Source: Antrihabitans cavernicola
GTDB lineage: Bacteria > Actinomycetota > Actinomycetes > Mycobacteriales > Mycobacteriaceae
Reading direction: 5' to 3'
DNA length: 48,232 nucleotides
Assembly (NCBI RefSeq): GCF_008297975.1
Contig: NZ_VLNY01000024.1
Coordinates: 1 to 48,232, forward strand
Below the pieces are notes generated by a model that was not told the origin of the DNA, did not search any database, and saw only the letters and a program-made list of their open reading frames with translations. How positions within the stretch are numbered: position 1 is the stretch's first letter; each line of letters opens with the position of its first letter. Made by a program: the position numbers and the translations under genes. Below are positions 3,358 to 46,915 of the stretch, in pieces.

Positions 3358-4218
3358 CTATTTCGTGAGGGTGAATTGCATGACGTCGAGGTAGCGGGTG
3401 CGGAACAGGTCGGCGCACCCGGTCAGGTATTTCATGTAGCCGTCGTAGGTTTCTTGCGAGGCGATGCGGACCGCGTCGTCTCGGCGCTCCGACAGGGCCG
3501 CGGCCCAGCAATCGAGCGTGCGCGCGTAGTGCGGCTGCAGCGACTGAATCCTCTCGACCCGGAACCCGGTGTCCTGCGCTGGGTCGGTGACCCAGTCGGG
3601 TTCGGGAAGCTGCCCACCGGGAAAGATGTTGCGCAGCATGAAGATCGCGAAGAGAAGATGCTCGCGCGTCACCGGAATTCCGCGTTTCTCCAGGGTGGCG
3701 CGTTGATAGCCGATGATGGTGTGCAACAACATTCGGCCGTCCTCGGGCAAGATGTCGTGGCACCGTTGAAAGAACGCCGGGTAGCGACGCTGGCGGAAAT
3801 GCTCGAACGCGCCGATGCTGACGATCCGATCCACCGGTTCGTCGAACTCCTCCCAGCCTTGCAGCCGGACCGACGCGGTCCGCGCCCCCGACAGTGTCGA
3901 ACAGATCCGCTCGACGTACGCGTACTGGTTGCGGCTGAGGGTGAGCCCGATCACGTTGACATCGTATTTTGCGATTGCTCGCAGCATCGTCGAACCCCAG
4001 CCGCAGCCGACGTCGAGCAAGGTCATTCCCGGCTGCAGATCGCACTTGCCGAGCGCGAGGTCGACCTTCGCCCATTGCGCCTGCTCGAGTGTCATATCGT
4101 CGCGCTCGAAGTAGGCGCAGCTGTAGGTCAGGCTGCGATCGAGAAACAGAGCGAAGAACTCATCGGACACGTCGTAATGTGACCGCACGTTCTCATAGAA
4201 GGGCTTCAAATCCGGCAT
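3358..4218 (-). CDS. Mycolic acid cyclopropane synthase-like SAM-dependent methyltransferase
   Basis: A 286-residue protein of the CmaA/MmaA/PcaA family, which transfers a methyl group from SAM to double bonds of mycolic acid precursors in the cytoplasm. Visible features: FYENVRSHYDVSDEFF and LTYSCAYFERDDMTLEQAQ at the N-terminus (typical of this family), the SAM motif LDVGCGWG at residues 68-75, and the GLTLSRNQY and EHF segments around the lipid/bicarbonate site. The start at 4218 is chosen because GGAGGAAGG lies just upstream and the family begins here; upstream sequence in this frame is unrelated. The preceding small ORF on the same strand overlaps its start by 13 bases, so translation may be coupled. 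Family is certain; the exact modification is not. Confidence 0.92.
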   Translation of the reverse strand: MPDLKPFYENVRSHYDVSDEFFALFLDRSLTYSCAYFERDDMTLEQAQWAKVDLALGKCDLQPGMTLLDVGCGWGSTMLRAIAKYDVNVIGLTLSRNQYAYVERICSTLSGARTASVRLQGWEEFDEPVDRIVSIGAFEHFRQRRYPAFFQRCHDILPEDGRMLLHTIIGYQRATLEKRGIPVTREHLLFAIFMLRNIFPGGQLPEPDWVTDPAQDTGFRVERIQSLQPHYARTLDCWAAALSERRDDAVRIASQETYDGYMKYLTGCADLFRTRYLDVMQFTLTK

Positions 4219-4592
4219 GGCAATCCTTCCTCCGATTTCCGCGGATCGTCGCTGTAACGGCCGTAGCGCCGCATGCGTGCCGACCGGGCGGTCGGCACAT
4301 CTGCACGCGATGGCCGCCGGATGTCCACGACCTGGGCGGCAGCTTCCTCGTGTTGACGCTCCTCGACGACCAGCGCCTCCTTCGACGCATCGGCACGTTC
4401 GACGGCGGTGGAGTCGGCGAAAAGTCGGCCCGCACCGTAGTCGAGGGTGACCAGCATCTTTCGATACCTCAGCAGCAGCGACGACCGACGATCGAGCACG
4501 ATCGACGCCACACCCTCCCCCGCCCGAAGCACGGATCGGATCCCTTCGTACTCGAAACACGCCACCGCGCGCGGCCACATCGTCCACACCAT
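4206..4592 (-). CDS. Hypothetical protein coupled to the mycolate methyltransferase
   Basis: A 128-residue ORF lying directly upstream of the cyclopropane-synthase-like gene. Its ATG overlaps the stop of the small ORF before it (TGATG at 4594-4590), and its 3' end overlaps the methyltransferase start by 13 bases, an arrangement expected of a translationally coupled operon. The sequence (MVWTMWPRAVACFEYEGIRS..., SIVLDRRSSLLLRYRKM, a Glu-rich EERQHEEAAAQVV stretch) shows no domain I recognise. Support comes from gene spacing, not homology. It could be a non-coding upstream region. Confidence 0.4.
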   Translation of the reverse strand: MVWTMWPRAVACFEYEGIRSVLRAGEGVASIVLDRRSSLLLRYRKMLVTLDYGAGRLFADSTAVERADASKEALVVEERQHEEAAAQVVDIRRPSRADVPTARSARMRRYGRYSDDPRKSEEGLPCRI

Positions 4593-5673: not shown

Positions 5674-5886
5674 TCAAGATGGATCGTCACGGTGAGCGCA
5701 TATCCCGGCATAGACGGCGTTGTAGGTGGCATCGTCGTCGAACACCCAGGACATGGAGCGGGTGTCGAACAGAAACGCAGCCAGCTGCCGATCCAGCGAG
5801 CACTGCGAGTATCGGCCGGTGCGGTAGCCGGAGGCCAAGAAGGATTCGACTATCGCAGCGGACGATGTCTCCCCGGGGCGACTCAT
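5674..5886 (-). CDS. Small conserved hypothetical protein with YRTGRY/DRQL/DDAT motifs, copy 1
   Basis: A 70-residue protein from ATG 5886, with core ASGYRTGRYSQCSLDRQLAA, then WVFDDDATYNAVY. A paralogue at 15090-15293 shares 25 of 46 aligned positions over this core, including YRTGRY, LDRQL, AFL, WV and DDAT, so this is a genuine protein family and not a chance ORF. An upstream in-frame ATG at 5970 has a GAGG motif and would add 28 residues not present in the paralogue. No catalytic signature and no membrane segment is visible. The two copies flank the Pls operon on opposite sides, and the second is coupled to a PAS-domain gene, suggesting a signalling or regulatory partner role (inference). 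Confidence 0.65.
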   Translation of the reverse strand: MSRPGETSSAAIVESFLASGYRTGRYSQCSLDRQLAAFLFDTRSMSWVFDDDATYNAVYAGICAHRDDPS

Positions 5887-5970
5887 GCGACACCGCTCAC
5901 TGCCGATGCGGGAGTAGGCCCCGAGTTCGGCGGAGCGAGTGGCGAGCAGAATGCACAGTGACCGATCCAT

Positions 5971-6557
5971 CGACGCTACCTCGGCGGGTTCCACCGAGCA
6001 TCCGACGCTGCAGGACACCTGGTTTGCTGAATATTGCCTCAAAGAATTCTCTGGTCAATCCACAGTGCCGGATGACGAGAAAGCTTCGTAGCCGATGCGG
6101 GTGCCGAAGTTCGTACTGCACGGTCTGGTTAGGGCGTTAGCGGGCGATCCGCTGGATCGGTGCCCGTGATTTACAGTCGTACGGTTTGTTTGCAGAAGCA
6201 GTTCATGTCGGCCATCCGGATAATTTGGTGTAGCGGGTGATGAACTGCGGCATTCGGCGGCCAACGCGGCTTGACGACACCGTCAAACACTTCATAACGT
6301 CCAGATAACGACGGAGACCGCGTGGTTTGGTACCGGAGGTATAGGGGCCTTCGTAGGGGGTGAAGCAAATGCCGGGCCAACCCTGCGGATCGGGGCTCGT
6401 GTTGGTGTAGTCCCGGAGTCGTTGGGGTGAATGCGTCTCCACAGCAATGCTTTTCACAATTCGGTGGACGACGTTCGGTGCAGGTTGACCCGCTGACCGG
6501 AGACGAGCACTGCATATCGATTGCAGTCGAACGAGAACAATTTGGGGGAATTCTCAC
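5971..6557. other. Leader/intergenic region upstream of the Pls operon
   Basis: 587 bases without a gene I can support. On the minus strand between 6203 and 6457 there is an open frame with coding-like composition (containing TSPDPQGWPGICFTPYEGPY) that I cannot assign; it may be the remains of a gene. The ribosome binding site of the Pls gene (GGGGGA, about 8 bases before ATG 6558) lies at the right edge, so the operon promoter should be within this region. Confidence 0.5.
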
Positions 6558-9500
6558 ATGGGGGACACTTCAGGGGCCGAATGGCGGACCAACCGGGACA
6601 ACCGCCCCGGCGGATGCGACATCGGCGATCCGCGGCGACGACTCAACCACGTGTTCGAGGGGTCGTGTGATCGTACGCCAGCGTCGGTGGCGCTCGAATG
6701 CGGACCGGTGCGGTTGAGCTACCGCGACCTCGACGAGCGCGCCAACCGGGTGGCGCATCATCTGATCGATCGTGGGATCGGTGTCGGCGCCCGGGTGGCG
6801 GTGTTGTTGCATCGTTGCATCGATACCTATGTTGCGATCCTCGCCGTCGCGAAGTCCGGCGCCGCGTTCGTGCCGATCGATCCGGAGAGTCCGGTCGACC
6901 GGATCGCCTACATCACCTCGGATGCGGATGTCGATCTGGTGGTGACCTCGGCGTCGTTCCGGGAGTCGCGAACACGGTTGGATCGGGCGTGGCTCGAGAT
7001 CGACCGCGAATCGTTCGACGGCTACTCCAGAGGTCGGCCGCTGCCGATCGGTGATGGCCCGGGGGTGGGCGCCGATCCGGCGTGTTACGTGATCTACACA
7101 TCCGGGTCGACTGGGCGGCCGAAGGGTGTCGAGGTGGCGCAGTCGAGTATCTGCAACTTCCTCGACGTCGTTCCCGGCATCTACGACGTGCAGCCGGCCG
7201 ATCGGGTGTATCAAGGGATGACGATCTCGTTCGACTTCTCGATCGAGGAGATCTGGCCGACCTGGGCGCGTGGTGCCACGCTGGTCGCGGGTCCGACCGA
7301 TTCGCGGCGCCTCGGAGCCGACCTGGCGGATTTCCTCGACGACGCGGCGATCACCGTACTATATTGCGTGCCAACACTTTTAGCGACGATTCCTCGCGAT
7401 CTGCCAGGCCTGCGCACCGTTCTGGTCGGTGGCGAAGCATGTCCTCGTGAACTCGTCGAACGGTGGAGTCGACCCGGGCGCCGCATCCTGAACACCTACG
7501 GCCCGACCGAGGCGACGGTGACCGCCACCTGGTGCGAGCTGTTACCGGGCCGACCGGTCACCATCGGTCGGCCGCTGCCGAGCTACTCGGTGGTGTTGCT
7601 CGACGAGCGGCGCACCGTGGTTCCCGACGGAGAAGTGGGCGAAATCTGTGTCGGTGGGCCGGGGGTGGCCCGCGGCTACGTCGGGCGACCGGAGCTGACC
7701 GCGGAACGCTTCATCGACCATCTCCTCGCGCCGCCGGGCGGCAAGCTCTATCGCACCGGCGACCTCGGCCGGATCACCGCCGAGGGCGAGGTCGAGTATT
7801 TGGGGCGCGCCGACAGCGAGGTCAAGATTCGCGGGCATCGGATCGATCTGGGCGAGATCGAGAGTGTGATCCTCGAGGACGCCGATGTGGCCGTCTGCGT
7901 GGTGGCACCGGTCGATGCGGTCGACGGTGACGAGTTGGCGAGTTATCTCGAGTTACGCGCCGGAACGGCCCGCCACGTCGACGAGGAGACGGTGATCGCC
8001 CGCGTCCGCGACGAACTGCGTGTCCGCCTCCCCCGCTACATGGTTCCGGCCTTTCTCGACGTCCTCGACGCCTTGCCGACCATGCCCAGCGGCAAGGTCG
8101 ACCGTAACCGGCTACCCACACCGACCGGTCGTCGACTGCTCACCGCCGGTCCGATCGTCGCGGTCGTAGGCGAACTCGAACACCAGCTTCGGACGGTGTG
8201 GGCGCAGGTGCTCGGACTCGAAGCGGATCGGGTGTCGGCGGAGGCGGACTTCTTCACCGATCTCGGCAGGCATTCGTTGACGGCGGCGCGCCTGATTTCG
8301 CAGCTCCGCGAGTCCGAACTGCATTCGTCCGCCGGTATCCGCGATCTCTACGAGCACCCCACCATCCGTTCGCTGGCACAATCGTTCACCGGTGCAGCCG
8401 ACTCCGCCGACATTCAGGTACCGGATCGTCCGGAAGTGTTGCGGCACACCGATGCCCGGGTTGCCCGGGCCGGCGCCGTGCAGGCGGTGTTTCTGTTGAC
8501 GGTGCTGCTGGTAGTGACGGCACCGGTGTCGATCGTCTACAGCCGCCATCACGGACAACCCTCGGTTCGGGTGCTGCTCGAACTGCTGCTTGCCACGATC
8601 CCGACGTATCTCGGGGTGCGGTGGTTGTTGCCGATGCTGCTGGTGCGGCCACTGTCGTGGGGTATCGGAGCGGGTCGCTACCCGTTGTGGGGGTCGACGT
8701 ATCTGCGGTTGTGGATGATCGACCATCTGCTGGTGCTCTCACCGATACCGGTGTTGAGCGGTTCGGCGATGCTCGCCCCGTTCCTGCGGGTGCTGGGAGC
8801 CAGCATCGGGTCCAACACCGACATCGGCACGAGTGCGATCTCACTGCCGTCGCTGATCCGGATCGGGGACGGGGTGGCGGTCGGCTACAACGCCGACCTG
8901 CGGGCGTGGCGCGTCGAGCACGGCTGGGTCGTCGTCGCGCCGGTGATCATCGACGACAACGCCTTCGTCGGGTCGAGCTGTGTGCTCGAACCCGGTGCCC
9001 GAGTCGAGACCGCGGCGATGCTGGCCGAACAGTCGCTGGTCTGCGCCGGACACCGGATACCCGAGGGCACCCGGTGGGCGGGGTCGCCGGCGCGTCCGGT
9101 GGCGAGGCTCACCGCGACGGTCGAGCAGATGATGGCCGCCGAGTCGCCGCGGCCCTGGACACCCGCACTGCTGGTGTGCTCGGCGGCAGCAGTCGCGGCG
9201 TTGGAGGTGGTCGCGATCGCCACCATCGTGCCCGCACTGGTGCTGGTCTGGGCGGTGTTGCTCGAATACGGGATGATCGCCGCGCTGCTCGCGACGCTGC
9301 CGTCCGGCACGGTATATGTGCTCACCGTCTGTGGTGTGGTCGCGGCGGGCAAACGTGTCGTGCTGCCGACGTTGCCGGCCGGGGTGTTCGACGCGCACTC
9401 CGGGCTCGGGATCCGCAAATGGATCGCCGACAAACTGTTCGAGATGAGCCTGACCTACACCAATTCGCTCTACGCCACCCTCTACACCGCACCCTGGCTA

Positions 9501-10544
9501 CGGCTGCTCGGGGCGAAGATCGGTCGCGGCGCCGAAGTCTCGACCGCCGCCCACATCGACCCGTCCCTGCTGCGCATCGGTGCGGAAAGCTTCGTCGCGG
9601 ACATGGCGTCCGTCGGCGGATCCACCTTCGCCAACGGGCGGATGGCGTTCGATGCCACCGAGGTAGGTGTCCGATCCTTCGTCGGGAACGCCGCGTTCGT
9701 GCCCGCCGGCACCCGAACCGGTACCGGTTCGCTGGTCGGGGTGTTGACCGTGCCGCCGACCGGTGATGTGCCGGAGGGAACGTCGTGGCTCGGCTCACCC
9801 GCGATGTTCCTCCCGACCCGCCAGGACAGCGGCGACTACGCCGAGACGCAGACGTTCCGGCCGACGCGGCGGCTGATCGGGCACCGCCTGCTCATCGAGT
9901 ACTTCCGAATCACCTTGCCCGCCACCGTGATCGGGGTGAGCCTGTATTTCTATCTGTTGGGGCTGTCGCAGTTCGCGCGGACCACCACCCTGGTGGCCAC
10001 GATCGTGGCGGCACCGTTTCTCGCGGTCGGTACCGCTGTGGGCGTGGTGCTCTACGTGTCGGCGGTCAAACGCAACGTTGCCGGTACCTACCGGCCACGG
10101 GTCGAGCCGCTGTGGGCCCGATTCGTGCGGCGATCCGAGTTCGCCACCGGACTCTACGAGGCGGCGGCGGTTCCGGTGCTGCTCAACCAGCTGCTGGGGA
10201 CGCCGTTCCTGGCGCCGTTGCTGCGCGGATTCGGCGCCGACATCGGCAAACGCACCTGGATCGGTACCACCTACTTGGCCGAGTTCGACCTGGTCCGCAT
10301 CGGCGACGACGCAGCGATCGGCACCGAGGTGTCGCTGCAGACGCACCTCTTCGAAGACCGGGTGATGAAGATGTCGCAGGTCACCGTCGATGACGGTGCC
10401 ACCGTCGGATCCCGGTCGATCGTGCTCTACGACGCCATCGTCGGCGACGACGCGACCGTCGCCTCGTTGTCGCTGTTGATGAAGGGGGAACAGCTTCCCC
10501 CCGACACCCACTGGCGCGGGATCCCCGCGCAGGCGGTGCACTGA
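6558..10544 (+). CDS. Pls/PosA-type non-ribosomal peptide synthetase (epsilon-poly-lysine synthetase-like membrane enzyme)
   Basis: A 1328-residue single-module enzyme. Adenylation domain about residues 20-525: YTSGSTGRPKG at 180, FDFSIEE, NTYGPTEA, YRTGDLG, KIRGHRID near 422 and SGKVDR with K513. Carrier domain about 535-615 with phosphopantetheine serine S573 (LGRHSLTA; the usual second Gly is Arg). The rest is membrane-bound: paired hydrophobic segments near 637-697, 865-935 and 1112-1175 alternate with three left-handed beta-helix (hexapeptide-like) domains near 750-850, 985-1090 and 1228-1328. This is the Pls architecture, in which the C-terminal domains link one activated amino acid into an isopeptide homopolymer at the membrane. 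The pocket residues by alignment to GrsA read D-F-E-Y-L-G-T-V-T-K; the acidic E suggests a basic amino acid such as lysine, ornithine or diaminobutyrate (inference). It is the first gene of a coupled five-gene operon. Confidence 0.9.
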   Translation: MGDTSGAEWRTNRDNRPGGCDIGDPRRRLNHVFEGSCDRTPASVALECGPVRLSYRDLDERANRVAHHLIDRGIGVGARVAVLLHRCIDTYVAILAVAKSGAAFVPIDPESPVDRIAYITSDADVDLVVTSASFRESRTRLDRAWLEIDRESFDGYSRGRPLPIGDGPGVGADPACYVIYTSGSTGRPKGVEVAQSSICNFLDVVPGIYDVQPADRVYQGMTISFDFSIEEIWPTWARGATLVAGPTDSRRLGADLADFLDDAAITVLYCVPTLLATIPRDLPGLRTVLVGGEACPRELVERWSRPGRRILNTYGPTEATVTATWCELLPGRPVTIGRPLPSYSVVLLDERRTVVPDGEVGEICVGGPGVARGYVGRPELTAERFIDHLLAPPGGKLYRTGDLGRITAEGEVEYLGRADSEVKIRGHRIDLGEIESVILEDADVAVCVVAPVDAVDGDELASYLELRAGTARHVDEETVIARVRDELRVRLPRYMVPAFLDVLDALPTMPSGKVDRNRLPTPTGRRLLTAGPIVAVVGELEHQLRTVWAQVLGLEADRVSAEADFFTDLGRHSLTAARLISQLRESELHSSAGIRDLYEHPTIRSLAQSFTGAADSADIQVPDRPEVLRHTDARVARAGAVQAVFLLTVLLVVTAPVSIVYSRHHGQPSVRVLLELLLATIPTYLGVRWLLPMLLVRPLSWGIGAGRYPLWGSTYLRLWMIDHLLVLSPIPVLSGSAMLAPFLRVLGASIGSNTDIGTSAISLPSLIRIGDGVAVGYNADLRAWRVEHGWVVVAPVIIDDNAFVGSSCVLEPGARVETAAMLAEQSLVCAGHRIPEGTRWAGSPARPVARLTATVEQMMAAESPRPWTPALLVCSAAAVAALEVVAIATIVPALVLVWAVLLEYGMIAALLATLPSGTVYVLTVCGVVAAGKRVVLPTLPAGVFDAHSGLGIRKWIADKLFEMSLTYTNSLYATLYTAPWLRLLGAKIGRGAEVSTAAHIDPSLLRIGAESFVADMASVGGSTFANGRMAFDATEVGVRSFVGNAAFVPAGTRTGTGSLVGVLTVPPTGDVPEGTSWLGSPAMFLPTRQDSGDYAETQTFRPTRRLIGHRLLIEYFRITLPATVIGVSLYFYLLGLSQFARTTTLVATIVAAPFLAVGTAVGVVLYVSAVKRNVAGTYRPRVEPLWARFVRRSEFATGLYEAAAVPVLLNQLLGTPFLAPLLRGFGADIGKRTWIGTTYLAEFDLVRIGDDAAIGTEVSLQTHLFEDRVMKMSQVTVDDGATVGSRSIVLYDAIVGDDATVASLSLLMKGEQLPPDTHWRGIPAQAVH

Positions 10545-11245
10545 TGGCAGGCACCGAGTCGACCGCACGGCCCGCGTCCGGTGGTCTGGCATTGGTCTAC
10601 CGCGGTCCGGCCGCGTTGCCCGGATGCCCGGAATCGGTCGCGCGACTGCTGCGCGGCAGCCACTGGAACTTCGATGTCCGCTTCGTCGGCCCGGACGAGG
10701 GGCGTGATCTGTCCGCCGACACACTGCGCGGGGCGGCGGTCTACGCCCAGCCCGGCGGGGCAACCCTGCGTCCGGCGTGGCGCGCACTGCGCGCCGTCCG
10801 CCAACCCCTGCGCGACTACGTCCATCACGGTGGCCGATACCTCGGCTTCTGCCTCGGCGCCTACCTGGCCGGGCGCACCCCCGGGTTCGGGTTGCTGCCG
10901 GGCGACACCGAGCAGTACATCCGCACCGCCGGCGCCACCACCGGCACGACCCGGCCGACGATCATCGACGTGACCTGGCGGGGCACCCCACACGCACTGT
11001 ATTTCCAGGACGGTGCCACCTTCGTCCTCGACGAACCGGACGAGGATGTGGATGTGGATGTGCTCGCCCGCTACCCGAACGGCGAGATCGCCGCCCTGAG
11101 CCACCGATTCGGTTCCGGCCGGGTCGCGGTCGTCGGCCCACACCCGGAGGCGACCACCGACTGGTTCGCCGACACCGGCCTGCGTGACCACACCGATCCT
11201 ACGATGCACGCGGGACACGACCTGATCGACACGGTGATGCGCTGA
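10544..11245 (+). CDS. BPL_N/class I glutamine amidotransferase-like protein, cytoplasmic copy
   Basis: A 233-residue protein with the fold signature of the biotin-protein-ligase N-terminal domain (BPL_N), a class I glutamine-amidotransferase-like family: ALVYRGPAALPGC at the N-terminus, VYAQPGGATL, the nucleophile elbow GFCLGAYLAG with C103, and GPHPEAT supplying H200 and E202 as a possible Cys-His-Glu triad. No signal peptide, so cytoplasmic. Its ATG overlaps the stop of the Pls gene (TGATG) and its stop overlaps the next start in the same way. A role in hydrolysing or amidating the polymer, or in making its precursor, is inference; the family has no settled activity. The second copy at 13394 shares all these motifs. 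Confidence 0.82.
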   Translation: MAGTESTARPASGGLALVYRGPAALPGCPESVARLLRGSHWNFDVRFVGPDEGRDLSADTLRGAAVYAQPGGATLRPAWRALRAVRQPLRDYVHHGGRYLGFCLGAYLAGRTPGFGLLPGDTEQYIRTAGATTGTTRPTIIDVTWRGTPHALYFQDGATFVLDEPDEDVDVDVLARYPNGEIAALSHRFGSGRVAVVGPHPEATTDWFADTGLRDHTDPTMHAGHDLIDTVMR

Positions 11246-12546
11246 TGGCCACCACAACTACCGCCGTGTCGACCGGCAGCTCGGCGACGGGCTCGCCCAC
11301 CGTGGCGAAACAGTCGCGGCTGATCGGTGTCGACATCACCCGCGGCCTGGCCGTGCTCGGGATGATCGCGATCCACTCGCTCGACGAGTACGACAACAGC
11401 GGTGCGCCCACCCTGAGTTTCACCCTCTTCGCCGGGCGGGCCGCGGCGATGTTCGCGGTGTTGGCCGGGGTCGCCATCTCCTTCATCGTGGGCCGCCGAC
11501 AACTCGTCGGCGGACCGGTGGCCCGCGGGAAGGTCGCCGCCCTGATCACCCGGGCCGCGACGATCGGGGTGATCGGCCTGGCCCTGGGCTATACCGACGC
11601 CGACTACGGCACCGTGATCCTGCCCTACTACGCGATCATGTTTCTGCTGGCGATCCCGTTGACCTATCTGCGGACCCGGGTCCTGATCCCGCTGACCGCC
11701 GTAGTCGTCATCGCCGCGCCGGTCCTGAGTCAATGGGTGCGCCCGCACCTGCAGGAGCCCTTGGGGACGCAGGCGTCCTTCGGCATTCTGCTGCACAATC
11801 CGCTCGGGCAGCTGATCGATCTCACCGTGACCGGCGAATACCCGGCGCTGGTGTGGATGAGCTACGTGTGCGCCGGGATCGTGGTCGGGCGGATGCGGCT
11901 GACCACGCTGCGGGTGGCCCTCGGCCTCGCCGGACTCGGGGGGATCCTCATGATCGCATCGTCCGGACTGAGCTGGCTGCTGCTGCGCCCGCTCGGCGGG
12001 ATCGCGCACCTGAGCGCCGGCGTCGACACCGACACCGCTCAGGACTTGTTACTCTTCGGCGGTGACGGCATCGTGCCCACCACCTCGTGGTGGTGGCTGG
12101 CGGTCGACGGTCCACATACCGGAACACCCCTGGACTTGATGGCCACCATCGGCAGCTCGTTCGCCGTACTCGGTGCAATTCTGCTGCTGGGGCACCTCAC
12201 CAGGCACCACCTCGGCTGGGTGCTCGCACCGCTCGCCGCCACCGGCAGCATGTCGTTGACCGTGTACACGGCGCACATCATGTTCATCAACTCCGACTTC
12301 GACATCTACGGTCCGACGTCGGGATACATCCGCCAACTCGTCTGCATCTTCGTCTTCACGCTGGCCTGGCGGGCCACCGCCGGCCGCGGCCCCCTCGAAG
12401 GACTCGTCGCGGCGATCACCACGCGCGTCGCCCGACACGTCGAGCGACGCGCATACTCCCGGACGCCACGACCAGCACACATCACTGGTGAACAGGGCGC
12501 AACCGAACGACGGGGAATCACCCAGCGACTCGGCCGCGGTCGATGA
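11245..12546 (+). CDS. Multi-pass membrane protein, HGSNAT/DUF1624-DUF418-like
   Basis: A 433-residue integral membrane protein. It opens, after a 25-residue Thr/Ser-rich tail, with RLIGVDITRGLAVLGMIAIH, the hallmark of the heparan-alpha-glucosaminide N-acetyltransferase-like (DUF1624) and DUF418 families (R-x-x-x-[LV]-D-x-x-R-G-x-A). About ten hydrophobic segments follow, with GSMSLTVYTAHIMF near residue 335 and a basic cytoplasmic tail. Family members carry acyl groups across the membrane or are uncharacterised. Coupled by TGATG to the gene before and ATGA to the gene after. In this operon it might acylate or export the Pls product (inference). Confidence 0.82.
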   Translation: MATTTTAVSTGSSATGSPTVAKQSRLIGVDITRGLAVLGMIAIHSLDEYDNSGAPTLSFTLFAGRAAAMFAVLAGVAISFIVGRRQLVGGPVARGKVAALITRAATIGVIGLALGYTDADYGTVILPYYAIMFLLAIPLTYLRTRVLIPLTAVVVIAAPVLSQWVRPHLQEPLGTQASFGILLHNPLGQLIDLTVTGEYPALVWMSYVCAGIVVGRMRLTTLRVALGLAGLGGILMIASSGLSWLLLRPLGGIAHLSAGVDTDTAQDLLLFGGDGIVPTTSWWWLAVDGPHTGTPLDLMATIGSSFAVLGAILLLGHLTRHHLGWVLAPLAATGSMSLTVYTAHIMFINSDFDIYGPTSGYIRQLVCIFVFTLAWRATAGRGPLEGLVAAITTRVARHVERRAYSRTPRPAHITGEQGATERRGITQRLGRGR

Positions 12547-13397
12547 CGGACACAGTTCCGGAGTTTCGTGCCATCTTTCGTGACGCCCCCACCGCACTAG
12601 CGGTGTGCACCCGCGGCGAGGTCATACTCGAAGCCAATTCGGCGTTCGCGCAGCTGCTCGGACGCACCGTCGACGACCTCGCCGACACCGCGCTGCTGCC
12701 CTGCGTGCACCCCGGCGATCGGCACATTCTGCACACCGTCTGCGCGACCACCGCCACCGCCACCGCAGTCGCGCGGCGGGTACGCATCCTGCGCCCGGAC
12801 GGCGGCGAGCGCGCGATCACGGTCACGGCATCGACCACGGCTGGTCACGGTGCCGCCGCCCTGCTCATCCTGCACCTCGACCACGCCCGCTCCACCGACA
12901 TCGCCCACGCCGCGGCGACGCCGACCTTGTCGCGGCACCACCCTGCGACCGGCCTGCCCGATCACGACACATTCCTCGACCGCTGCCGACACGCAACGAT
13001 CGCAGGCCACCGTGCGGGCACCCCGACGACCGTGACGGTCGTCGCCGTGACCACCACCTGCTACGGTCGACTCGTCGCGGAGGCCGTCGCCATCGAAACG
13101 GCGCGACGCGTCACCGCCTGCCTGCCCGGAGCCGTCATCGGCGCAACCGGCACCGTGGCGTGCGTCGCCACGGGAACATTCGCAGTGGTGTCACAGAACA
13201 CCACACCCGCACAGGCCACCCGCATAGCGGACCGTCTGCGACGCGAAACGGCCAGACCCATCCACCTCGCGGCTCGACCCCTACAGTGCGCAACGTCCGT
13301 CACGGTCTCGAAGATCACCGATCACGATGATCCAGCCACCCTGCTCGCGGCGATGATCCGAGACACCCAGGACCACCTGGCAACGAGTTCACGATGA
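12543..13397 (+). CDS. PAS domain protein with degenerate GGDEF domain
   Basis: A 284-residue cytoplasmic protein. Residues about 8-115 form a PAS domain (FRAIFRDAPTALAVCTRGEV, EANSAFAQLLGR, VHPGD, RVRILRPDGGERAI). From about 140 the sequence resembles a GGDEF domain, starting with ATGLPDHDTFLDRC (the usual TGLPNR..F..R), but the place of the GGDEF signature reads VATGTFAVVSQ, so the active-site half-motif and diguanylate cyclase activity are lost. It probably senses or binds a ligand rather than making c-di-GMP. ATGA overlaps link it to the membrane-protein gene before it and the BPL_N gene after it, so it is a structural member of the Pls operon and likely its regulator or a partner. Confidence 0.8.
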   Translation: MTDTVPEFRAIFRDAPTALAVCTRGEVILEANSAFAQLLGRTVDDLADTALLPCVHPGDRHILHTVCATTATATAVARRVRILRPDGGERAITVTASTTAGHGAAALLILHLDHARSTDIAHAAATPTLSRHHPATGLPDHDTFLDRCRHATIAGHRAGTPTTVTVVAVTTTCYGRLVAEAVAIETARRVTACLPGAVIGATGTVACVATGTFAVVSQNTTPAQATRIADRLRRETARPIHLAARPLQCATSVTVSKITDHDDPATLLAAMIRDTQDHLATSSR

Positions 13398-14224
13398 ACC
13401 ATCACCACTGGCCACCGCACACTCGCCCGCCCCGAACACTGACCCGTCGGCGGTTGCTGATCAGCGGTGCCGGCATCCTCACGGTCGGCGCAACCATCGG
13501 CATCACCACACACCAGCATTTCGACCCTCCCGGCAACCGCCCCGTAGCGCTGGTTTACCGCGGCCCGGCGTCGTGTGCCGGATGCTCGGAGGCCGTCGCC
13601 AACCTGCTGCAGACCTCCCCGACTCCGTTTCGGACCGTGTTCTGCGGCCCCGACGAAGCCACCCCGCTCACAGCGGCGAACCTGGCGAACGCGACCGTCT
13701 ACGCCCAACCCGGCGGCGGAACCCTCGCACCGGCCTGGCGCAAAATGCGCGGCCACGCCGACGACCTCCGCGCCTGGGTCCGCGGCGGCGGACACTACCT
13801 CGGCTTCTGCCTCGGCGCCTACCTGGCCGGCCCGACGTCCGGGTTCGGACTCGTGCCTGGCGACATCGAACGCTACATCGACTCCGACAACGCCACTGTC
13901 CACAACACCGACGACACCGTCATCGCGATCCGGTGGCGAAACCAACCGCGGCACATGTTCTTCCAAGACGGCCCCACCTTCCCTAACACCACACCCGCCA
14001 CGACGGCAGTACCGGCCCGCTACGACAACGACCTACCGGCCGCAGTCATCACCACCTACGGGACCGGGCGCGTCGGGCTCGTCGGACCACACCCCGAAGC
14101 CGACCCGACCTGGTACACCGGAATCGACCTCACCAACCCCGACGGAATCCGCTACGACCTCGGCCACGACCTCATCGAATCCACACTCCACCCCACACCC
14201 AACGAACCAGCACCAGCAGGGTGA
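13394..14224 (+). CDS. BPL_N/class I amidotransferase-like protein with Tat-like signal, exported copy
   Basis: A 276-residue paralogue of the second operon gene. The N-terminus carries RTLTRRRLLISGAGILTVGA, a twin-arginine-like signal (arginines near 18-20 followed by a hydrophobic stretch), predicting export, possibly as a membrane-anchored protein because no clear cleavage site is seen. The mature part repeats the family motifs: ALVYRGPASCAGC, VYAQPGGGTL, GFCLGAYLAG with C139, and GPHPEAD with H233 and E235. A cytoplasmic and an exported copy in one operon suggest action on the same kind of bond on both sides of the membrane (inference). It is the last gene of the operon; an IS21 remnant starts within about 70 bases of its stop. 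Confidence 0.82.
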   Translation: MNHHHWPPHTRPPRTLTRRRLLISGAGILTVGATIGITTHQHFDPPGNRPVALVYRGPASCAGCSEAVANLLQTSPTPFRTVFCGPDEATPLTAANLANATVYAQPGGGTLAPAWRKMRGHADDLRAWVRGGGHYLGFCLGAYLAGPTSGFGLVPGDIERYIDSDNATVHNTDDTVIAIRWRNQPRHMFFQDGPTFPNTTPATTAVPARYDNDLPAAVITTYGTGRVGLVGPHPEADPTWYTGIDLTNPDGIRYDLGHDLIESTLHPTPNEPAPAG

Positions 14225-14821: not shown

Positions 14822-15074
14822 GCGGCGCCGCTGTTCACGTTCGCCGATGTCGGCGATTCGGAATCGGTCGTTGCGCATGTGCAGGCGCTGGCCAGCACGA
14901 TCGTCGAGTTGGCGCACGCCGACGGTTCGACGGTGCGTACGGTGGTCAGCGAGTCCGTCTTGCTCCGCGCCGACGACCCAATCGCTCTTGTCGCGTTTCA
15001 CGATGTCACCGAACAACTGTGGACGCGGGGGTGCCAGGGCCGAAATCTTTGTGCGCACGTTCGCCAACGGTTAG
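14822..15074 (+). pseudogene. PAS-domain protein, N-terminally truncated remnant
   Basis: The plus strand encodes the second half of a PAS domain: APLFTFADVGDSES, TIVELAHADGSTV, then VVSESVLLRADDPIALVAFH and HDVTEQLW. Over 32 residues, 22 match the intact minus-strand PAS protein at 15298-15807 (LVSTSALARVDDP..., HDVTEQLW). The first half of the domain is missing; upstream sequence in frame runs into the IS21 end at 14678, so insertion or deletion around the element probably removed it. After HDVTEQLW the frame probably shifts, giving a short tail ending at 15074. Convergent with the YRTGRY gene. Confidence 0.65.
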
Positions 15075-15089
15075 CCGTACTCGGGGGAG

Positions 15090-15293
15090 CTACCCGTTGG
15101 CGGAGAGTCGTCGCTGCCCGGCCTGGACGACTCGATAGAGGTTGTTGAAGGTCGCATCGTCGGTGAGTACCCAGGCCGTGTCACGGCCGTTGGCGAGGAA
15201 CGCGACGAGTTGCCGATCCAACGTCCAATGTGCGTAACGTCCGGTCCGATACGCGGAGCGAACGAATGCCGCCGCCAGGCGTGCGGTACCCAT
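15090..15293 (-). CDS. Small conserved hypothetical protein with YRTGRY/DRQL/DDAT motifs, copy 2
   Basis: A 67-residue protein from ATG 15293: AAAFVRSAYRTGRYAHWTLD, RQLVAFLANGRDTAWVLTDD, ATFNNLY. It is clearly paralogous to the protein at 5674-5886. It starts 4 bases after the stop codon of the PAS gene upstream, with GAGGA as ribosome binding site inside that gene's last codons, so the two are cotranscribed and probably work together. The family is not one I recognise. Conserved Arg, Trp and Asp residues hint at a small folded binding domain rather than a peptide toxin. Confidence 0.7.
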   Translation of the reverse strand: MGTARLAAAFVRSAYRTGRYAHWTLDRQLVAFLANGRDTAWVLTDDATFNNLYRVVQAGQRRLSANG

Positions 15294-15297
15294 GTGT

Positions 15298-15807
15298 TCA
15301 CCGGTCCTCGCCCGAGGGTGGGGAGTGACACGCATCGGACCAGCCCGGGTGGAGCTCGAACGCTGTTCGTGCCCACAGTTGTTCGGTGACATCATGGAGG
15401 GCGACCAACGCCACCGGGTCGTCGACACGTGCCAGCGCCGAGGTGCTCACCAGCGCGTGCACGACCCACCCATCCTGATGACGCAGATCGATGACCACAT
15501 TCGATCGCCCGCGCAGGCCGTCGATGCCGGTATCGGCATCAGCAGGGTCGGCCAGGATGTGACCGGCACCCCGGTTGATCAACGCGCTGCAGCTCGGATA
15601 TCCCAGCATGTCGGCGAACGCCGCGTTGACGTAGACGATGACACCGTTCTGGTGCACCGCCAGAATCGGCACCGGGAACCGATCGAGAACCAGCGTGGTC
15701 GGCAATCCCTCGAGATAGCCGAGCGGAGTGTCCGGGGGCGCGCACCGCCGACGCTCGGTCCGCGTGTTGCTGGGCGTATATCCGCGCGTGACGTTATCGC
15801 CGATCAT
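15298..15807 (-). CDS. PAS-domain protein
   Basis: A 169-residue protein built around one PAS domain (about residues 35-155): LVLDRFPVPILAVHQNGVIV, YVNAAFADMLGYPSCSALIN, VIDLRHQDGWVVHALVS, then DDPVALVALHDVTEQLWAR. There is no kinase, GGDEF or DNA-binding output domain, so it is a stand-alone sensor. ATG 15807 is preferred (GGGGGA upstream at good spacing); ATG 15888 lacks a ribosome binding site. It forms an operon with the small YRTGRY gene. A truncated plus-strand relative lies at 14822-15074 and a PAS protein also occurs in the Pls operon, so PAS sensing is a recurring theme here. Confidence 0.78.
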   Translation of the reverse strand: MIGDNVTRGYTPSNTRTERRRCAPPDTPLGYLEGLPTTLVLDRFPVPILAVHQNGVIVYVNAAFADMLGYPSCSALINRGAGHILADPADADTGIDGLRGRSNVVIDLRHQDGWVVHALVSTSALARVDDPVALVALHDVTEQLWARTAFELHPGWSDACHSPPSGEDR

Positions 15808-16771
15808 TGCGTTCGTCCCCCGAACCGGGGATTGCCCGGACGCGACATGCCCGAACAGGGTTCTCGAACCGAGATTGCATATCGACATAAAAAATAAGAT
15901 CGCGCCCCTTCACCGTGACGACCACAACGGTCGAGATACTCCCGATGCGTCTTCGGAATCCCAAGGTCTGCCTCACCCTCGATAATGACCATCCGGCATT
16001 GCACGACCGGCGACGTCGAGGAACTATCCGATTCAGCACGCGACGTGTCAGCCGTGTTCGCCGGCGACATTTCAGGACTCACGGCGGGCTACCGATACCG
16101 ACCGGCAACCGTCCGATACCCCGCTGCGTAATGGGTACCCGCGCCGAAAAGAGGTGCTCCAAAGCAACTCGCTTATGCATCCTCACCGCCCCCTGTCCGA
16201 CTCAGAACCCAAGCCGTTACCGCGACGTTATAAGGATCTCCCGTAATGGTCAACCGGATAATCCGCCGGAAGCGATCCGCGCATTATCCGCAACCAATAT
16301 TTACCAAGTAGGACGAACGGTATCCGCTACCGAACGCCGACCTGTAGTTTGTTATTGGACCGAATTTCAAGACTTCGTATGGCGTAAAACCGCTGACGGT
16401 ATCGAAATGTGAGTTGCAAAACCTACATGCGGTCGGAAATACATGCGTCCATTCCGCCGGGTCGACCTGCACATCGAGCCAGACAATGTTGAGCAACCAG
16501 TGTTTCACGAGTCGCCATCGTCACGCCGCGTACACGCTGGCAAAAGCAGTTGCAGAACATTGCGTCCATACCACTGCTGCGAACACCCTGGCCCGGTTCG
16601 CAGCTACGTAGAGACGTTTGTCAGTGGGCAGCGTGACCGCCGGAATGCTTGCGCGGCAGGTGGTTAGGGCCAGCTCGATGCCCGCTCGGACGGTGCGTTT
16701 CCCAGCGGCGAAAGCGGGTATTCCCCACCGGACGAACACCGAGTTGGCGACACATACCCAAGGGAGCAGAA
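15808..16771. other. Long region without supportable genes
   Basis: About 960 bases, visibly more A/T-rich than its neighbours, especially 16200-16450. Open frames on both strands are short and carry no motifs. It separates the PAS unit (transcribed leftward) from the GlsB/YeaQ gene (transcribed rightward) and probably contains their promoters and decayed DNA. Confidence 0.5.
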
Positions 16772-17210: not shown

Positions 17211-17582
17211 TCAATTTTCGGGTCGGCTGCTCACGATGTCGTCGGCGAGCGGGGCGACGGTGGTCAGTACCTCGTCGATCACCGCCGGGGACACGCCCGC
17301 GGCGGTGAGTGCGGCACCGAGATGGGTCGCCACCCGGTCGAAGTGCGCCTGGGTGATGGCGCGTCCGCGGTGCACATCGGGCAGCGAGGCACCGGTATAG
17401 GGCTCCGGTCCGCCGAGTGCGGCACAGAAGAACTCGGTCTGTCGACCCTTGAGCCGCGACACATTCGCACCGGTGAAGAATCCGGACAAGTGCCGGTCGT
17501 CGAGGATCCGGTCGTAGAAGTCGACGACCACGGCCTCGATGGCCTGGCCGCCGCCGATCCGCTGATATATCGAGGGTGTCAT
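17211..17582 (-). CDS. glbN: Group I truncated haemoglobin
   Basis: A 123-residue truncated (2-on-2) globin: [38 protein letters not shown], the [13 protein letters not shown] loop and [19 protein letters not shown]23 is the likely B10 tyrosine that contacts bound O2/NO, and H71 (DVHRGRAI) the likely proximal F8 haem ligand, by alignment with mycobacterial HbN. Group I members in mycolic-acid bacteria detoxify nitric oxide by dioxygenation. AGGAGG directly precedes ATG 17582. Monocistronic. Confidence 0.92.
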
Positions 17583-17632: not shown

Positions 17633-18505
17633 CTAGATCGGGGCCTGCCGCCGATGCGACGCGGAGCTGCGGGCGGTGTCGGCGTCGGGGTGATCGGTTG
17701 CACCGTCGTGCAGTGTGCGGACGCTGCGATCGAGTCGGTGCCTCGGCAGTGCGGGTGACGCCGCTGCGGGCAGGGCGGCGGCGACCGGTGGTGAGTCGAG
17801 GTGGGGCAGATCCCCGAGTTTGTCGATCTCGGTCGAGAGTGCGGTGACGATCGCCCGCAACTGATTCTGCGCAATCCGGGCGTGGGTGCGCACGTACTCG
17901 ATCTCGGGTATCGGCCTGCTGTAGTTCGCCCCACTCCCCTGGGTGAGGCTGGTCAAACCGTCGGCGGTCTCGGCGGCGCTGCGTTGTGCACGGCGCAGAA
18001 TCTCCCGGTACTGTTCGCGCGCGGTCAGCACCAGATCCCGGGCGTACAGTTCGGCTTCACCGATGGTGGCGTCGGCGGAGACCTGAGCCTGGCTGAGCAG
18101 GTTGACAGCGCGGACACTGACGCCGAGCAGATCCTGCTCGGACTCCGCCCGCAGCCGTGCGTTCTCCCGCTGCACCGCCGCCAGTTCCGCCCGCACACCG
18201 GCGATCGCGGCACCCCCGCCCACCGCGGTGCCGCGTTGATGTAGTTGATGTAGTTGATGTAGTTGCCATTCCAGGGTGCGTACCCGGGCGATCAGCCGGT
18301 CGTTCTCGGCGTCGGTGTCGATGTCGGTGGTCTCGGCCAGTCGGGTGTTGTCGGCGACCAGCCGGGCGTTGCGGGCGAGAAGGCCGGCGACGTCGGCGCC
18401 CACCGCATCGAGGAAGTCGTCGACGTCGTTCTCGTCGTAGCCGCGCCGCCCGAGCGGGGACCGCTTGAATTCCTTCCGATGAATCTCGGACGGGGTCAGC
18501 GCCAT
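17633..18505 (-). CDS. DivIVA-domain protein (Wag31-like paralogue)
   Basis: A 290-residue protein starting [20 protein letters not shown] and continuing [17 protein letters not shown], the membrane-curvature-binding DivIVA N-terminus found in Wag31. A long coiled coil follows (about residues 30-225, heptad-rich with many Leu/Arg/Glu), then a Pro/Ala/Arg-rich C-terminal tail. A perfect 9-base tandem repeat encodes HQLHQLHQL within the coiled coil. The start at 18505 is where family homology begins; an upstream in-frame ATG at 18532 is possible. True Wag31 usually sits by ftsZ and sepF; the absence of these here suggests a second DivIVA-type protein, perhaps for a different polar or septal task. 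Confidence 0.82.
18236..18264. repeat. 9-base tandem repeat within the DivIVA-like gene
   Basis: Three copies of ttgatgtag (plus two further bases) in a row, encoding the HQL tripeptide repeated three times in the coiled coil. Because the unit is a multiple of three, copy-number change by slippage keeps the frame and changes the coil length. Confidence 0.85.
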
Positions 18506-18725
18506 CCGCTCACCCCGTGACGGGCCCGACACCCACGGTCCGGGCGCCCGGTGTCCACATGCCGCCCGGCGTTGGCGCGGTATCGCCCGGTGTCGATTGC
18601 TGGCGAGTGGTGGTGGCGATGCCGCCCGGTTCCGGTTGTCGACCGAAACGAGGTGATGGACACGGCTCTGGGAGGACTATCCACACCCGACCGCGCCACC
18701 GCGCTCGGGAAGGGGCGTCGCCGGG

Positions 18726-25925: not shown

Positions 25926-26375
25926 TCAGTGGCGTGGGTTGGAAGTGAGATAGGTGAGCCGGAATTTGCCGACACGAATCTCGTCGCCGTCGCTGAGAAC
26001 TGCGGTATCGACAGATTCCCCGTTGCGATACGTTCCGTTCAGGCTACCGACATCGGCGAGCCGGAAACGGTCCCCGTCGCGGCGGAACTCGGCGTGGCGG
26101 CGGCTGACGGTGACGTCGTCGAGGAAGATGTCGCTATCGACGTGCCTGCCGACGGTGATGACCGGCCCGTCGAGTAAGAATTGTGCTCCCCGGTTGGGTC
26201 CGCGTTTCACGATGAGCAGCCCGGCACCGTGCGGGAGCGGGCCGAGCGCGACAGGTCGTGCAGGGTCGGGACCCCGCGATATGTCCTCGTCCATGCCTTC
26301 GAGATCGGCACGGAACTGATCCGTGTGCTCCACCGGCCGACCACTCTCGCCTGCGGGCCCGTTTTTGTCGATCAC
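25926..26375 (-). CDS. GarA-like FHA-domain protein
   Basis: A 149-residue protein whose last 95 residues are a forkhead-associated domain almost superimposable on mycobacterial GarA: LLIVKRGPNRGAQFLLDGP, VGRHVDSDIFLDDVTVSRRH, GSLNGTYRNGESVD and IRVGKFRLTYL. GarA binds and regulates 2-oxoglutarate decarboxylase, NAD-glutamate dehydrogenase and glutamate synthase, switched by Ser/Thr kinase phosphorylation of an N-terminal ETTS motif. Here the equivalent position reads VEHTDQFRADL, with a single Thr in place of the Thr pair. GTG 26375 is chosen (GGAGGA about 9 bases upstream); TTG 26378 or 26381 are alternatives. It could be the only GarA or a paralogue. Confidence 0.85.
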   Translation of the reverse strand: MIDKNGPAGESGRPVEHTDQFRADLEGMDEDISRGPDPARPVALGPLPHGAGLLIVKRGPNRGAQFLLDGPVITVGRHVDSDIFLDDVTVSRRHAEFRRDGDRFRLADVGSLNGTYRNGESVDTAVLSDGDEIRVGKFRLTYLTSNPRH

Positions 26376-26511
26376 CAACAAGTCTCCTCCCGCCGCTTCG
26401 CGGGTTTGCGCTCAGAATACGCCCTGCCCGGAGGTGCCCGCATGACCCATGGTCCTACACGAGCGATGGTGGGATTCCATCGATCAAGGCCCGACCCGAC
26501 GTGACGCAGGC

Positions 26512-45726: not shown

Positions 45727-46299
45727 TCAGGCGTTTCGAATCATCTCGACAGCTGCGCCCATCCCGTATCGCCCGGTGAGGATGTCGAGGATCTCGTCGA
45801 CTTCCTTCGGTGGGCGGGTGAGCCGCGCCGAGATCGCCTCGATCGCGGCGCGCGCCCTGTTCGGATCGACTGCCGTGGTGTCGGCAACGAATTCGGCAGC
45901 GCTGACAACGTGGATGGATCCGGGTATGCGCTCCGATGGAAAGTCGCGAAGGTTGTCGGTGACGATCGCGCCTGCGCCTCCCACTACGGCCGCAGCGACG
46001 ACATGCTCGTCGTCGACATCCGGAAGACCGAACGTGCCTTCAAGCGGTTCCCAATGCTCAACGATGGCGTCGTCGAACGCTTCCCGCATCACATGCAGCA
46101 GTCGTGCCGCGTCGATCGCTGCCTGCTCGGGATCTGCACCGCGATCGACAAGCTTGCGCGCCTCGTGGTACTCCAGCTCGTCGAGAATGGCGTCCGACCA
46201 GAGCGGCCGGTACAGATTCTCGACCGCCAAGGACAGAAGGAGATCGCGTTGGAGACTGGGCCAGAGCACACAGGTATCCAACACGGCCGCGAACATCAC
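45727..46299 (-). CDS. PIN-domain toxin (VapC-like)
   Basis: A 190-residue PIN-domain protein: FAAVLDTCVLWPSLQRDLLL with D8, WSDAILDELEYHEARK, and the acidic cluster LPDVDDEHVVAAAVVGGAGA then IVTDNLRDFPSERI. These acidic residues bind Mg2+ for RNA cleavage. Start ATG overlaps the stop of the antitoxin-like gene by four bases, the standard toxin-antitoxin layout with the antitoxin first. The C-terminal extension (RAAIEAISARLTRPPKEVDE) is longer than in VapC proper and typical of the PIN proteins paired with excisionase-type antitoxins. Confidence 0.88.
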   Translation of the reverse strand: MMFAAVLDTCVLWPSLQRDLLLSLAVENLYRPLWSDAILDELEYHEARKLVDRGADPEQAAIDAARLLHVMREAFDDAIVEHWEPLEGTFGLPDVDDEHVVAAAVVGGAGAIVTDNLRDFPSERIPGSIHVVSAAEFVADTTAVDPNRARAAIEAISARLTRPPKEVDEILDILTGRYGMGAAVEMIRNA

Positions 46300-46844
46300 A
46301 CGATTCTGGCAGACCGCTCCCTGCGCTCGCGCCGACGCTCCGCAATAGCCTTCCGAGCATCGCGAAGCTGCTCACGCACTGCCTCAGGATCGTTCTCGTC
46401 GAGGAAGTCGATCGATGTTTCAGCCAGCGCGGCGTACTGCCGAGTGCGTCGCTTCGTGCGGTAATCGAGGACATCGGTCAGCAGCAGTTTGTGCCGGCTA
46501 CCGACACGTTCCGCGGGTAGATCACCGATGTCGATCAGCCGCTTCACCGTCGGCCGGCTTACACCCAGCAGATCGGCCGCTTGCTGAGTCGTCAGCGTGG
46601 TGCTCTGCGGCGCGACAGTGACAGCACGCCCAGCCTCCATCGCGTCCACAACTTGCTTGAGTATCCGGTGAACGGACGCCGGCACAACGACCTGATCATG
46701 CTCGTCGGCACCGACCAGCATGTACCGCGGCTCAACAGTGTTGCCGCGCTTCGCTTCATGAATCGCGAGGAAGCTGATGACCTGTGCCAATTCGTCGGAC
46801 TTCTCCGGCAAGAATGTCTGCTGTTCCAATGCCTGGGCAGTCAT
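46296..46844 (-). CDS. Excisionase-type HTH antitoxin
   Basis: A 182-residue protein with a helix-turn-helix of the Xis/MerR type near residues 85-135: LTTQQAADLLGVSRPTVKRL, IDIGDLPAERVGSRHKLLLT, DVLDYRTKRR. The charged C-terminal helix (REQLRDARKAIAERRRERRE) probably wraps the toxin. ATG 46844 follows AAGGAGG at ideal spacing; the longer upstream frame lacks a ribosome site. It precedes and overlaps the PIN gene, so it likely neutralises it and autoregulates the pair. Confidence 0.85.
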   Translation of the reverse strand: MTAQALEQQTFLPEKSDELAQVISFLAIHEAKRGNTVEPRYMLVGADEHDQVVVPASVHRILKQVVDAMEAGRAVTVAPQSTTLTTQQAADLLGVSRPTVKRLIDIGDLPAERVGSRHKLLLTDVLDYRTKRRTRQYAALAETSIDFLDENDPEAVREQLRDARKAIAERRRERRERSARIV

Positions 46845-46915
46845 GACAACCTCCTTACTCGAACGAATAGTAACACGGTTTCGAAACTTTCGAACTGGGT
46901 TTCTCGATGCGAACC

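Follow-up and report, generated by a model that had tools for sequence, protein, structure and literature searches.

A conserved association of BPL_N proteins with a class of Pls-type homopoly(amino acid) synthetases, and a candidate poly-diaminopropionate operon in Antrihabitans cavernicola

The contig NZ_VLNY01000024.1 of Antrihabitans cavernicola (assembly GCF_008297975.1, 5.66 Mb in 41 contigs), designated C17 and forming in its entirety the 48,232 nt window analysed here, carries a five-gene operon that begins with a Pls/PosA-family homopoly(amino acid) synthetase and continues with a BPL_N protein, an HGSNAT-like membrane protein, a PAS protein with a degenerate GGDEF-like domain and a second BPL_N protein. 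The synthetase belongs to a class that is predicted to use a short diamino acid and has a BPL_N gene as its near-constant neighbour. We see about an even chance that the product of the locus is a cationic homopolymer with isopeptide linkages, poly-L-2,3-diaminopropionate being the most likely candidate, and that a matched pair of Cys-hydrolases manages it. The synthetase family is known; the new aspect is the conserved, nearly class-specific BPL_N partner, of which our searches of open papers yielded no description.

Conservation of the synthetase-BPL_N pair

Samples of 301 genomes of the family and 394 of the class, both including this genome, were drawn regardless of BPL_N, with at most three and two candidate synthetases, respectively, scored per genome; the limits of the close synthetase class, ~400 bits in the family and ~570 bits in the class, are our choice. 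The synthetase C-terminal region has matches (E 1e-20 or better) in 276 of the family genomes, in two score classes, and BPL_N protein 1 in 23. Close-class synthetases are found at 17 places in 16 family genomes, a broken gene in G192 being counted once, and BPL_N adjoins 16 of these (14 of 15 if this genome is left out). At the exception (G153), synthetase and BPL_N are on separate contigs, and a quick tree groups the G153 BPL_N 1 beside a synthetase-adjacent copy from Nocardia. None of the BPL_N stretches fetched from the family has a distant-class synthetase, and eight of the 23 BPL_N-bearing genomes have no synthetase within that stretch. The class sample has nine places above 570 bits in eight genomes, with BPL_N within ~120 nt at eight of them (six of seven without this genome). 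The exception, G526, has no BPL_N match and at 575 bits scores near the diaminobutyrate (Dab)-type synthetases (560-567 bits). Four of the 11 BPL_N genomes in this sample (G512, G642, G603 and G631) lack a close-class synthetase.

A scan of the collection with the BPL_N alignment provided 79 named loci, representing the best 80 of 227 matches confirmed with the BPL_N query, and 73 of these have the synthetase C-terminal region; since they were retrieved through BPL_N, they are no measure of synthetases that lack it. Five of the remaining six lie on contigs of <10 kb and the sixth is G153 again. The named loci span at least 20 genera, including Streptomyces, Micromonospora, Microbispora, Dactylosporangium, Kutzneria, Amycolatopsis, Pseudonocardia, Georgenia and Geodermatophilus. 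With nine that repeat family loci removed, there are 93 BPL_N loci, 80 of them also with a synthetase.

In 79 of these 80 loci, BPL_N is encoded downstream of the synthetase and on the same strand. An HGSNAT-like gene is present in 49 (in one, L107, as a weak match elsewhere in the stretch) and a second BPL_N gene in 35, always together with the HGSNAT-like gene; for both, as for the M1 peptidases considered below, absence means absence from the fetched stretch, and some contigs are short. The order synthetase, BPL_N, HGSNAT-like is kept in 16 family loci, including the two in this genome, the HGSNAT-like gene precedes BPL_N in L112, L140, L143 and L147, and it is absent from most Streptomyces and Microbispora loci. 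Neighbour families were taken from all-against-all clusters that held many shadow frames of high-GC genes, and only those verified with Pfam or NCBIfam were used.

The original prediction had made its case depend on the neighbours being conserved with the synthetase in related genomes, and this neighbourhood search found that they are. It had treated the five genes as one set: the synthetase-BPL_N pair is conserved and the HGSNAT-like gene is common, but the PAS-GGDEF gene occurs in none of the other 91 of the 93 loci and, being confined to the two copies in this genome, is ruled out as a core part. Between the end of the synthetase alignment and BPL_N lie 3 to 1584 nt, with another gene filling the longer gaps; tight overlaps are therefore not kept in relatives, and the fixed stoichiometry that had been deduced from coupling is not sustained.

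On a Rhodococcus erythropolis plasmid, the three core genes are annotated side by side under generic names, so that the synteny is open to view; a PAS-ANTAR gene is located near that cluster (L177). A DDAH/arginine-dihydrolase-like gene is present in 17 of the 80 loci (for example, L071:9000-9893), mostly in Micromonosporaceae, and in most cases it separates the synthetase from BPL_N 1. At the L058/L144 locus, from a genome that is 79% complete, the synthetase is split over three frames and the triad His of BPL_N 1 is replaced by Arg, the result of decay or poor sequence.

Structure and duplication of the operon

As originally described, the five ORFs (Table 1) are intact and overlap, by 1, 1, 4 and 4 nt in gene order. 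A domain scan assigned the synthetase to TIGR02353 (552.1 bits, cut-off 423.1), with AMP-binding (268.8) and PP-binding (52.4) domains, and the BPL_N proteins to PF09825 (55.6 bits for protein 1 and 39.8 for protein 2, gathering cut-off 24.2). The membrane protein scores 34.5 bits with HGSNAT_cat (cut-off 22). The PAS protein scores 34.2 bits with PAS (cut-off 22.6) and 16.4 with GGDEF (cut-off 23.8), and its translation has no GGDEF/GGEEF motif. Two sigma-70-type promoter-like sites (0.9 in shuffles) and one terminator-like site (2.8 in shuffles) provide nothing usable.

Table 1. Genes of the operon and annotated neighbours in the window
Feature	Position	Strand	Length (aa)	Remarks
Pls/PosA-family homopoly(amino acid) synthetase	6558-10544	+	1328	A domain, carrier domain, C-terminal polymerisation domain
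BPL_N protein 1	10544-11245	+	233	Predicted cytosolic, hydrophobic N-terminus absent; class I glutamine amidotransferase (GATase)-like fold; triad C103-H200-E202
HGSNAT-like (TmAT superfamily) membrane protein	11245-12546	+	433	Invariant D30, R33 (DxxR) and H44
PAS + degenerate GGDEF-like protein	12543-13397	+	284	PAS above, GGDEF below Pfam cut-off
BPL_N protein 2	13394-14224	+	276	Tat-like RRR, hydrophobic N-terminus, predicted exported; triad intact
Mycolic-acid cyclopropane synthase-type methyltransferase	3358-4587	-
Truncated-type bacterial globin	17211-17582	-
DivIVA-domain protein	17633-18532	-

The entire operon is duplicated on a second contig, C19, with 83% identity over 7617 bp (6642-14177 of the window). 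All five ORFs are open, the encoded proteins are, in gene order, 85, 79, 81, 71 and 75% identical, and the corresponding dN/dS values of 0.20, 0.31, 0.32, 0.40 and 0.33 suggest purifying selection on both copies, weakest on the PAS-GGDEF gene. Given this second copy and the gene order kept in the family loci, the operon is not a chance arrangement. BPL_N has no match in the other three genomes of the genus. Further stretches of the window, 25945-26423, 46003-46270 and 46393-46895, also match C19, at 78-94%. The operon is flanked by genes or gene fragments of PAS type and by a small repeated ORF, the copies judged similar by eye (14840-15028 (+), 15298-15888 (-), 5674-6042 (-) and 15090-15428 (-)), and there are PAS matches near the C19 copy as well.

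Synthetase class and predicted substrate

A-domain codes, whose positions we take to follow GrsA numbering, were read from GrsA-type alignments by eye and then projected by alignment. The code of the operon synthetase is DFEYLGTVTK, with Asp1 and Glu3 present and Phe at position 2. Of 86 synthetases coded, eight repeats included, 82 have DFEYxGTVTK or DFECLGTVTK, three have DAESIGTVVK and one (L118) is incomplete. Synthetases of this kind are described as retaining Asp1 and Glu3, and position 2 has been proposed to determine side-chain length, with Ala for lysine, Met for ornithine and Phe for diaminopropionate (Dap) and Dab alike (PMC10522769). Asp1 and Glu3 thus predict the basic substrate that the original prediction had assumed, whereas lysine is not supported as the monomer, position 2 being Phe, not Ala.

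The genome has three synthetases above the family cut-off, that on C19 being a close copy of that on C17 and the third, on C1 (36312-38363, L014), more distant, with the epsilon-poly-lysine (epsilon-PL) code DAESIGTVVK and an adjacent M1 peptidase gene. Lysine as the substrate of the operon synthetase is rejected on Phe at position 2 together with this separate epsilon-PL-type synthetase, as is identity with epsilon-PL synthetases, whose DAESIGTVVK code has Ala at that position. Neither the window nor the L013 stretch has an M1 peptidase match. More generally, an M1 peptidase is encoded within ~1.3 kb of 11 of 12 DAESIGTVVK genes (L154, L155, L156, L161, L162, L163, L165, L166, L167, L014 and the second gene of L130); the exception, L138, also breaks class-specificity, having BPL_N beside an epsilon-PL-type synthetase. 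The distant class is the majority among the family genomes with a Pls-type synthetase, and six such genes from other genomes (L161-L163, L165-L167) have this code and a nearby M1 peptidase. Streptomyces pinistramenti has tandem synthetases (L130:5868-16470), DFEYVGTVTK with BPL_N and then DAESIGTVVK with M1.

Phe at position 2 is compatible with both Dab and Dap. In Streptomyces celluloflavus, a synthetase gene with the code DFECLSAVTK is followed by a diaminobutyrate transaminase (dat) gene (453.8 bits, cut-off 401.6), an arrangement published for pldA (PMC8117764). Dab supplied through a linked dat gene is rejected for the present operon, with no dat match on contigs C17 or C19. In Streptomyces noursei there are two full-length synthetase matches (E 1e-100 or better), one DFEYVGTVTK with BPL_N and the other DAESIGTVVK with M1. 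Strain PD-1, in which disruption is reported to have proved the poly-Dap synthetase (PMC4668381), is filed under S. noursei. Elimination within S. noursei thus leaves poly-Dap as the best guess for the DFEYxGTVTK class; the code DFEYLGTVTK predicts a short diamino acid, probably diaminopropionate. Weighing against this assignment, the ORF reported for the PD-1 enzyme (PDAPs), at 4338 bp, exceeds the 1422 codons that are open in S. noursei A-2-1; furthermore, this genome has no match above cut-off to SbnA, which would indicate a dedicated Dap supply.

The BPL_N proteins

The predicted fold of the BPL_N proteins is closest to those of the glutaminases Pdx2 and HisH, with homoserine acyltransferases also among the Foldseek matches; solved relatives were not found by sequence for BPL_N, and the HGSNAT-like protein has one, chance-level match. 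The Cys-His-Glu triad is invariant in the 61 rows of our selected alignment A2, which covers many genera and leaves out the broken L058/L144 locus, and a Tyr is present at C+4. This invariance, and the purifying selection seen when the two operon copies are compared, make it very improbable that the two BPL_N proteins are non-catalytic sensors or scaffolds, in an operon little different from other Pls loci, even though our literature search yielded no activity for any BPL_N protein.

A hydrophobic N-terminus is present in none of 78 synthetase-adjacent BPL_N copies versus 49 of 54 other copies; the limit of 1.6 and the simple choice of start codons are arbitrary, and two of the five exceptions are at 1.53 and 1.56. 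BPL_N 2 of this operon scores 1.95. Six stand-alone BPL_N genes (L064-L068 and L047), with no synthetase in their 20 kb stretches, also encode a hydrophobic N-terminus, five with a lipobox-like motif; their hosts could be users of the polymer or bystanders immune to it.

The fold, the intact triad and the tight association with the synthetase would all be expected if the cytosolic BPL_N protein were a true glutaminase or amidotransferase that provides the synthetase, or the supply of its precursor, with ammonia, for instance for C-terminal amidation at release or for the Dap beta-amine. We regard this as unlikely. Export is predicted for a close homologue that shares the triad, and outside the cell there is no ATP-dependent amidation; the recurrent neighbour families checked with Pfam include no ligase or synthase partner. 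The residue that follows PGG is Glu in the PdxT of this genome, whereas 60 of the 61 BPL_N rows have G, D, P or A there; HisH, however, also lacks this Glu, and no glutamine-site signature emerged. Amidation of the polymer, one of the modifications offered in the original prediction, loses its footing on the same grounds. Since the exported copy has no such amidation to feed, polymer hydrolases inside and outside the cell are favoured.

A second alternative, that BPL_N is not a degrader but a factor for release or editing by the synthetase, acting as a type II thioesterase or a transpeptidase might, draws on the almost uniform downstream position of BPL_N on the synthetase strand, although in some loci with a gene between, and on the homoserine acyltransferases among the structural matches. 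PDAPs is described as having no detected thioesterase domain and its release step as unknown (PMC4668381). The exported copy is, however, left unexplained, and the epsilon-PL and Dab-type loci examined manage without BPL_N, L138 excepted; we judge such a role improbable. Hydrolysis by a Cys-dependent pair remains the preferred reading.

Alternation with M1 peptidases

We take PldII, the epsilon-PL-degrading enzyme, to be itself an M1 peptidase. Other lineages that have the synthetase class of the operon encode an M1 peptidase with HExxH downstream, and in all six examined there is a hydrophobic stretch near the N-terminus. The 80 loci divide into 35 with a second BPL_N, 22 with M1, 23 with neither and none with both; L130 is classed as neither since its M1 gene follows the second, epsilon-PL-type synthetase. 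Fisher's test gives 2.7e-7 for this exclusion but ignores kinship, and with few independent events a tree-aware test could not decide, so the exclusion is rejected as proof of equivalent function. It fits a shared role. PldII is reported as an aminopeptidase that is translationally coupled to pls and acts outside the membrane, and its repression as resulting in longer polymer (PMC9223678).

Proposed function

Based on its family, the membrane synthetase very probably charges its carrier domain with a short diamino acid, which it then polymerises. The cytosolic BPL_N protein would then cut stray or over-long chains, or aid release, through acyl-enzyme chemistry of the Cys-His-Glu triad, and the exported protein may act likewise outside the cell, where it would protect the producer, trim the polymer or allow its re-use, a task that would fall in other lineages to the M1 peptidase encoded beside this synthetase class.

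The HGSNAT-like protein has an HGSNAT_cat score above cut-off, the fold and the DxxR motif of the TmAT/HGSNAT superfamily. With less assurance, it might take acyl groups from acyl-CoA in the cytosol and pass them through the membrane onto the free alpha-amines of the polymer, and so lower its charge. The PAS-GGDEF protein would be a local, regulator-like addition. Of the modifications raised in the original prediction, two thus stay as leading proposals, as far as sequence can suggest: BPL_N would trim or hydrolyse the polymer and the HGSNAT-like protein would acylate it.

It is conceivable, if somewhat short of an even prospect, that these BPL_N proteins are the first of a new Cys-dependent isopeptidase family dedicated to poly-diaminopropionate, one copy being cytosolic and linked to the synthetase and the other exported, and that they provide two-sided length control and immunity for one class of polycation, with N-acylation of HGSNAT type on the outside. 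How Pls-type systems set chain length, release the product and protect the producer is only partly understood, mostly for lysine. One specificity class with a near-constant partner, and the two-compartment pair, offer direct gene targets. The orphan BPL_N domain becomes tied to a substrate class, a prokaryotic acceptor is suggested for HGSNAT-like proteins, and DFEY-x-GTVTK together with BPL_N provides a genome-mining rule for polycation producers well beyond Streptomyces.

Comparison with known systems

As in the Streptomyces pls-pldII system, a Pls-family synthetase is tightly linked to a putative polymer-active enzyme, pldII being coupled to pls and its product active outside the membrane (PMC9223678). 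Here, as the original prediction recognized, the partners differ from that published pair: the code is DFEY-x-GTVTK rather than DAESIGTVVK, and a BPL_N protein with a Cys triad takes the place of an M1 metallopeptidase, with an exported paralogue and an HGSNAT-like gene in addition. PDAPs of S. albulus/noursei PD-1 shares Phe at code position 2, and a single synthetase of precisely this class, followed by BPL_N, is present in S. noursei A-2-1; the main text of the PDAPs paper uses neither the word hydrolase nor the word amidotransferase (PMC4668381). The poly-Dab loci (pldA-dat-ask and pddA-pddB-pddC-pddD) have a synthetase of the same family and a short diamino acid, but there the partners are dat, ask or a racemase (PMC8117764, PMC8225329), the dat-linked S. 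celluloflavus gene has the code DFECLSAVTK, and the fetched S. celluloflavus stretch (L152) has no BPL_N.

The HGSNAT-like protein is only 14% identical to human HGSNAT and is, here, a stand-alone bacterial protein encoded beside a polycation synthetase. With the class I GATases Pdx2 and HisH, and with gamma-glutamyl peptidases, the BPL_N proteins share the fold and the Cys-His-Glu triad; they differ in forming a cytosolic and exported pair, in the Tyr at C+4 and in having no synthase partner among the neighbours checked.
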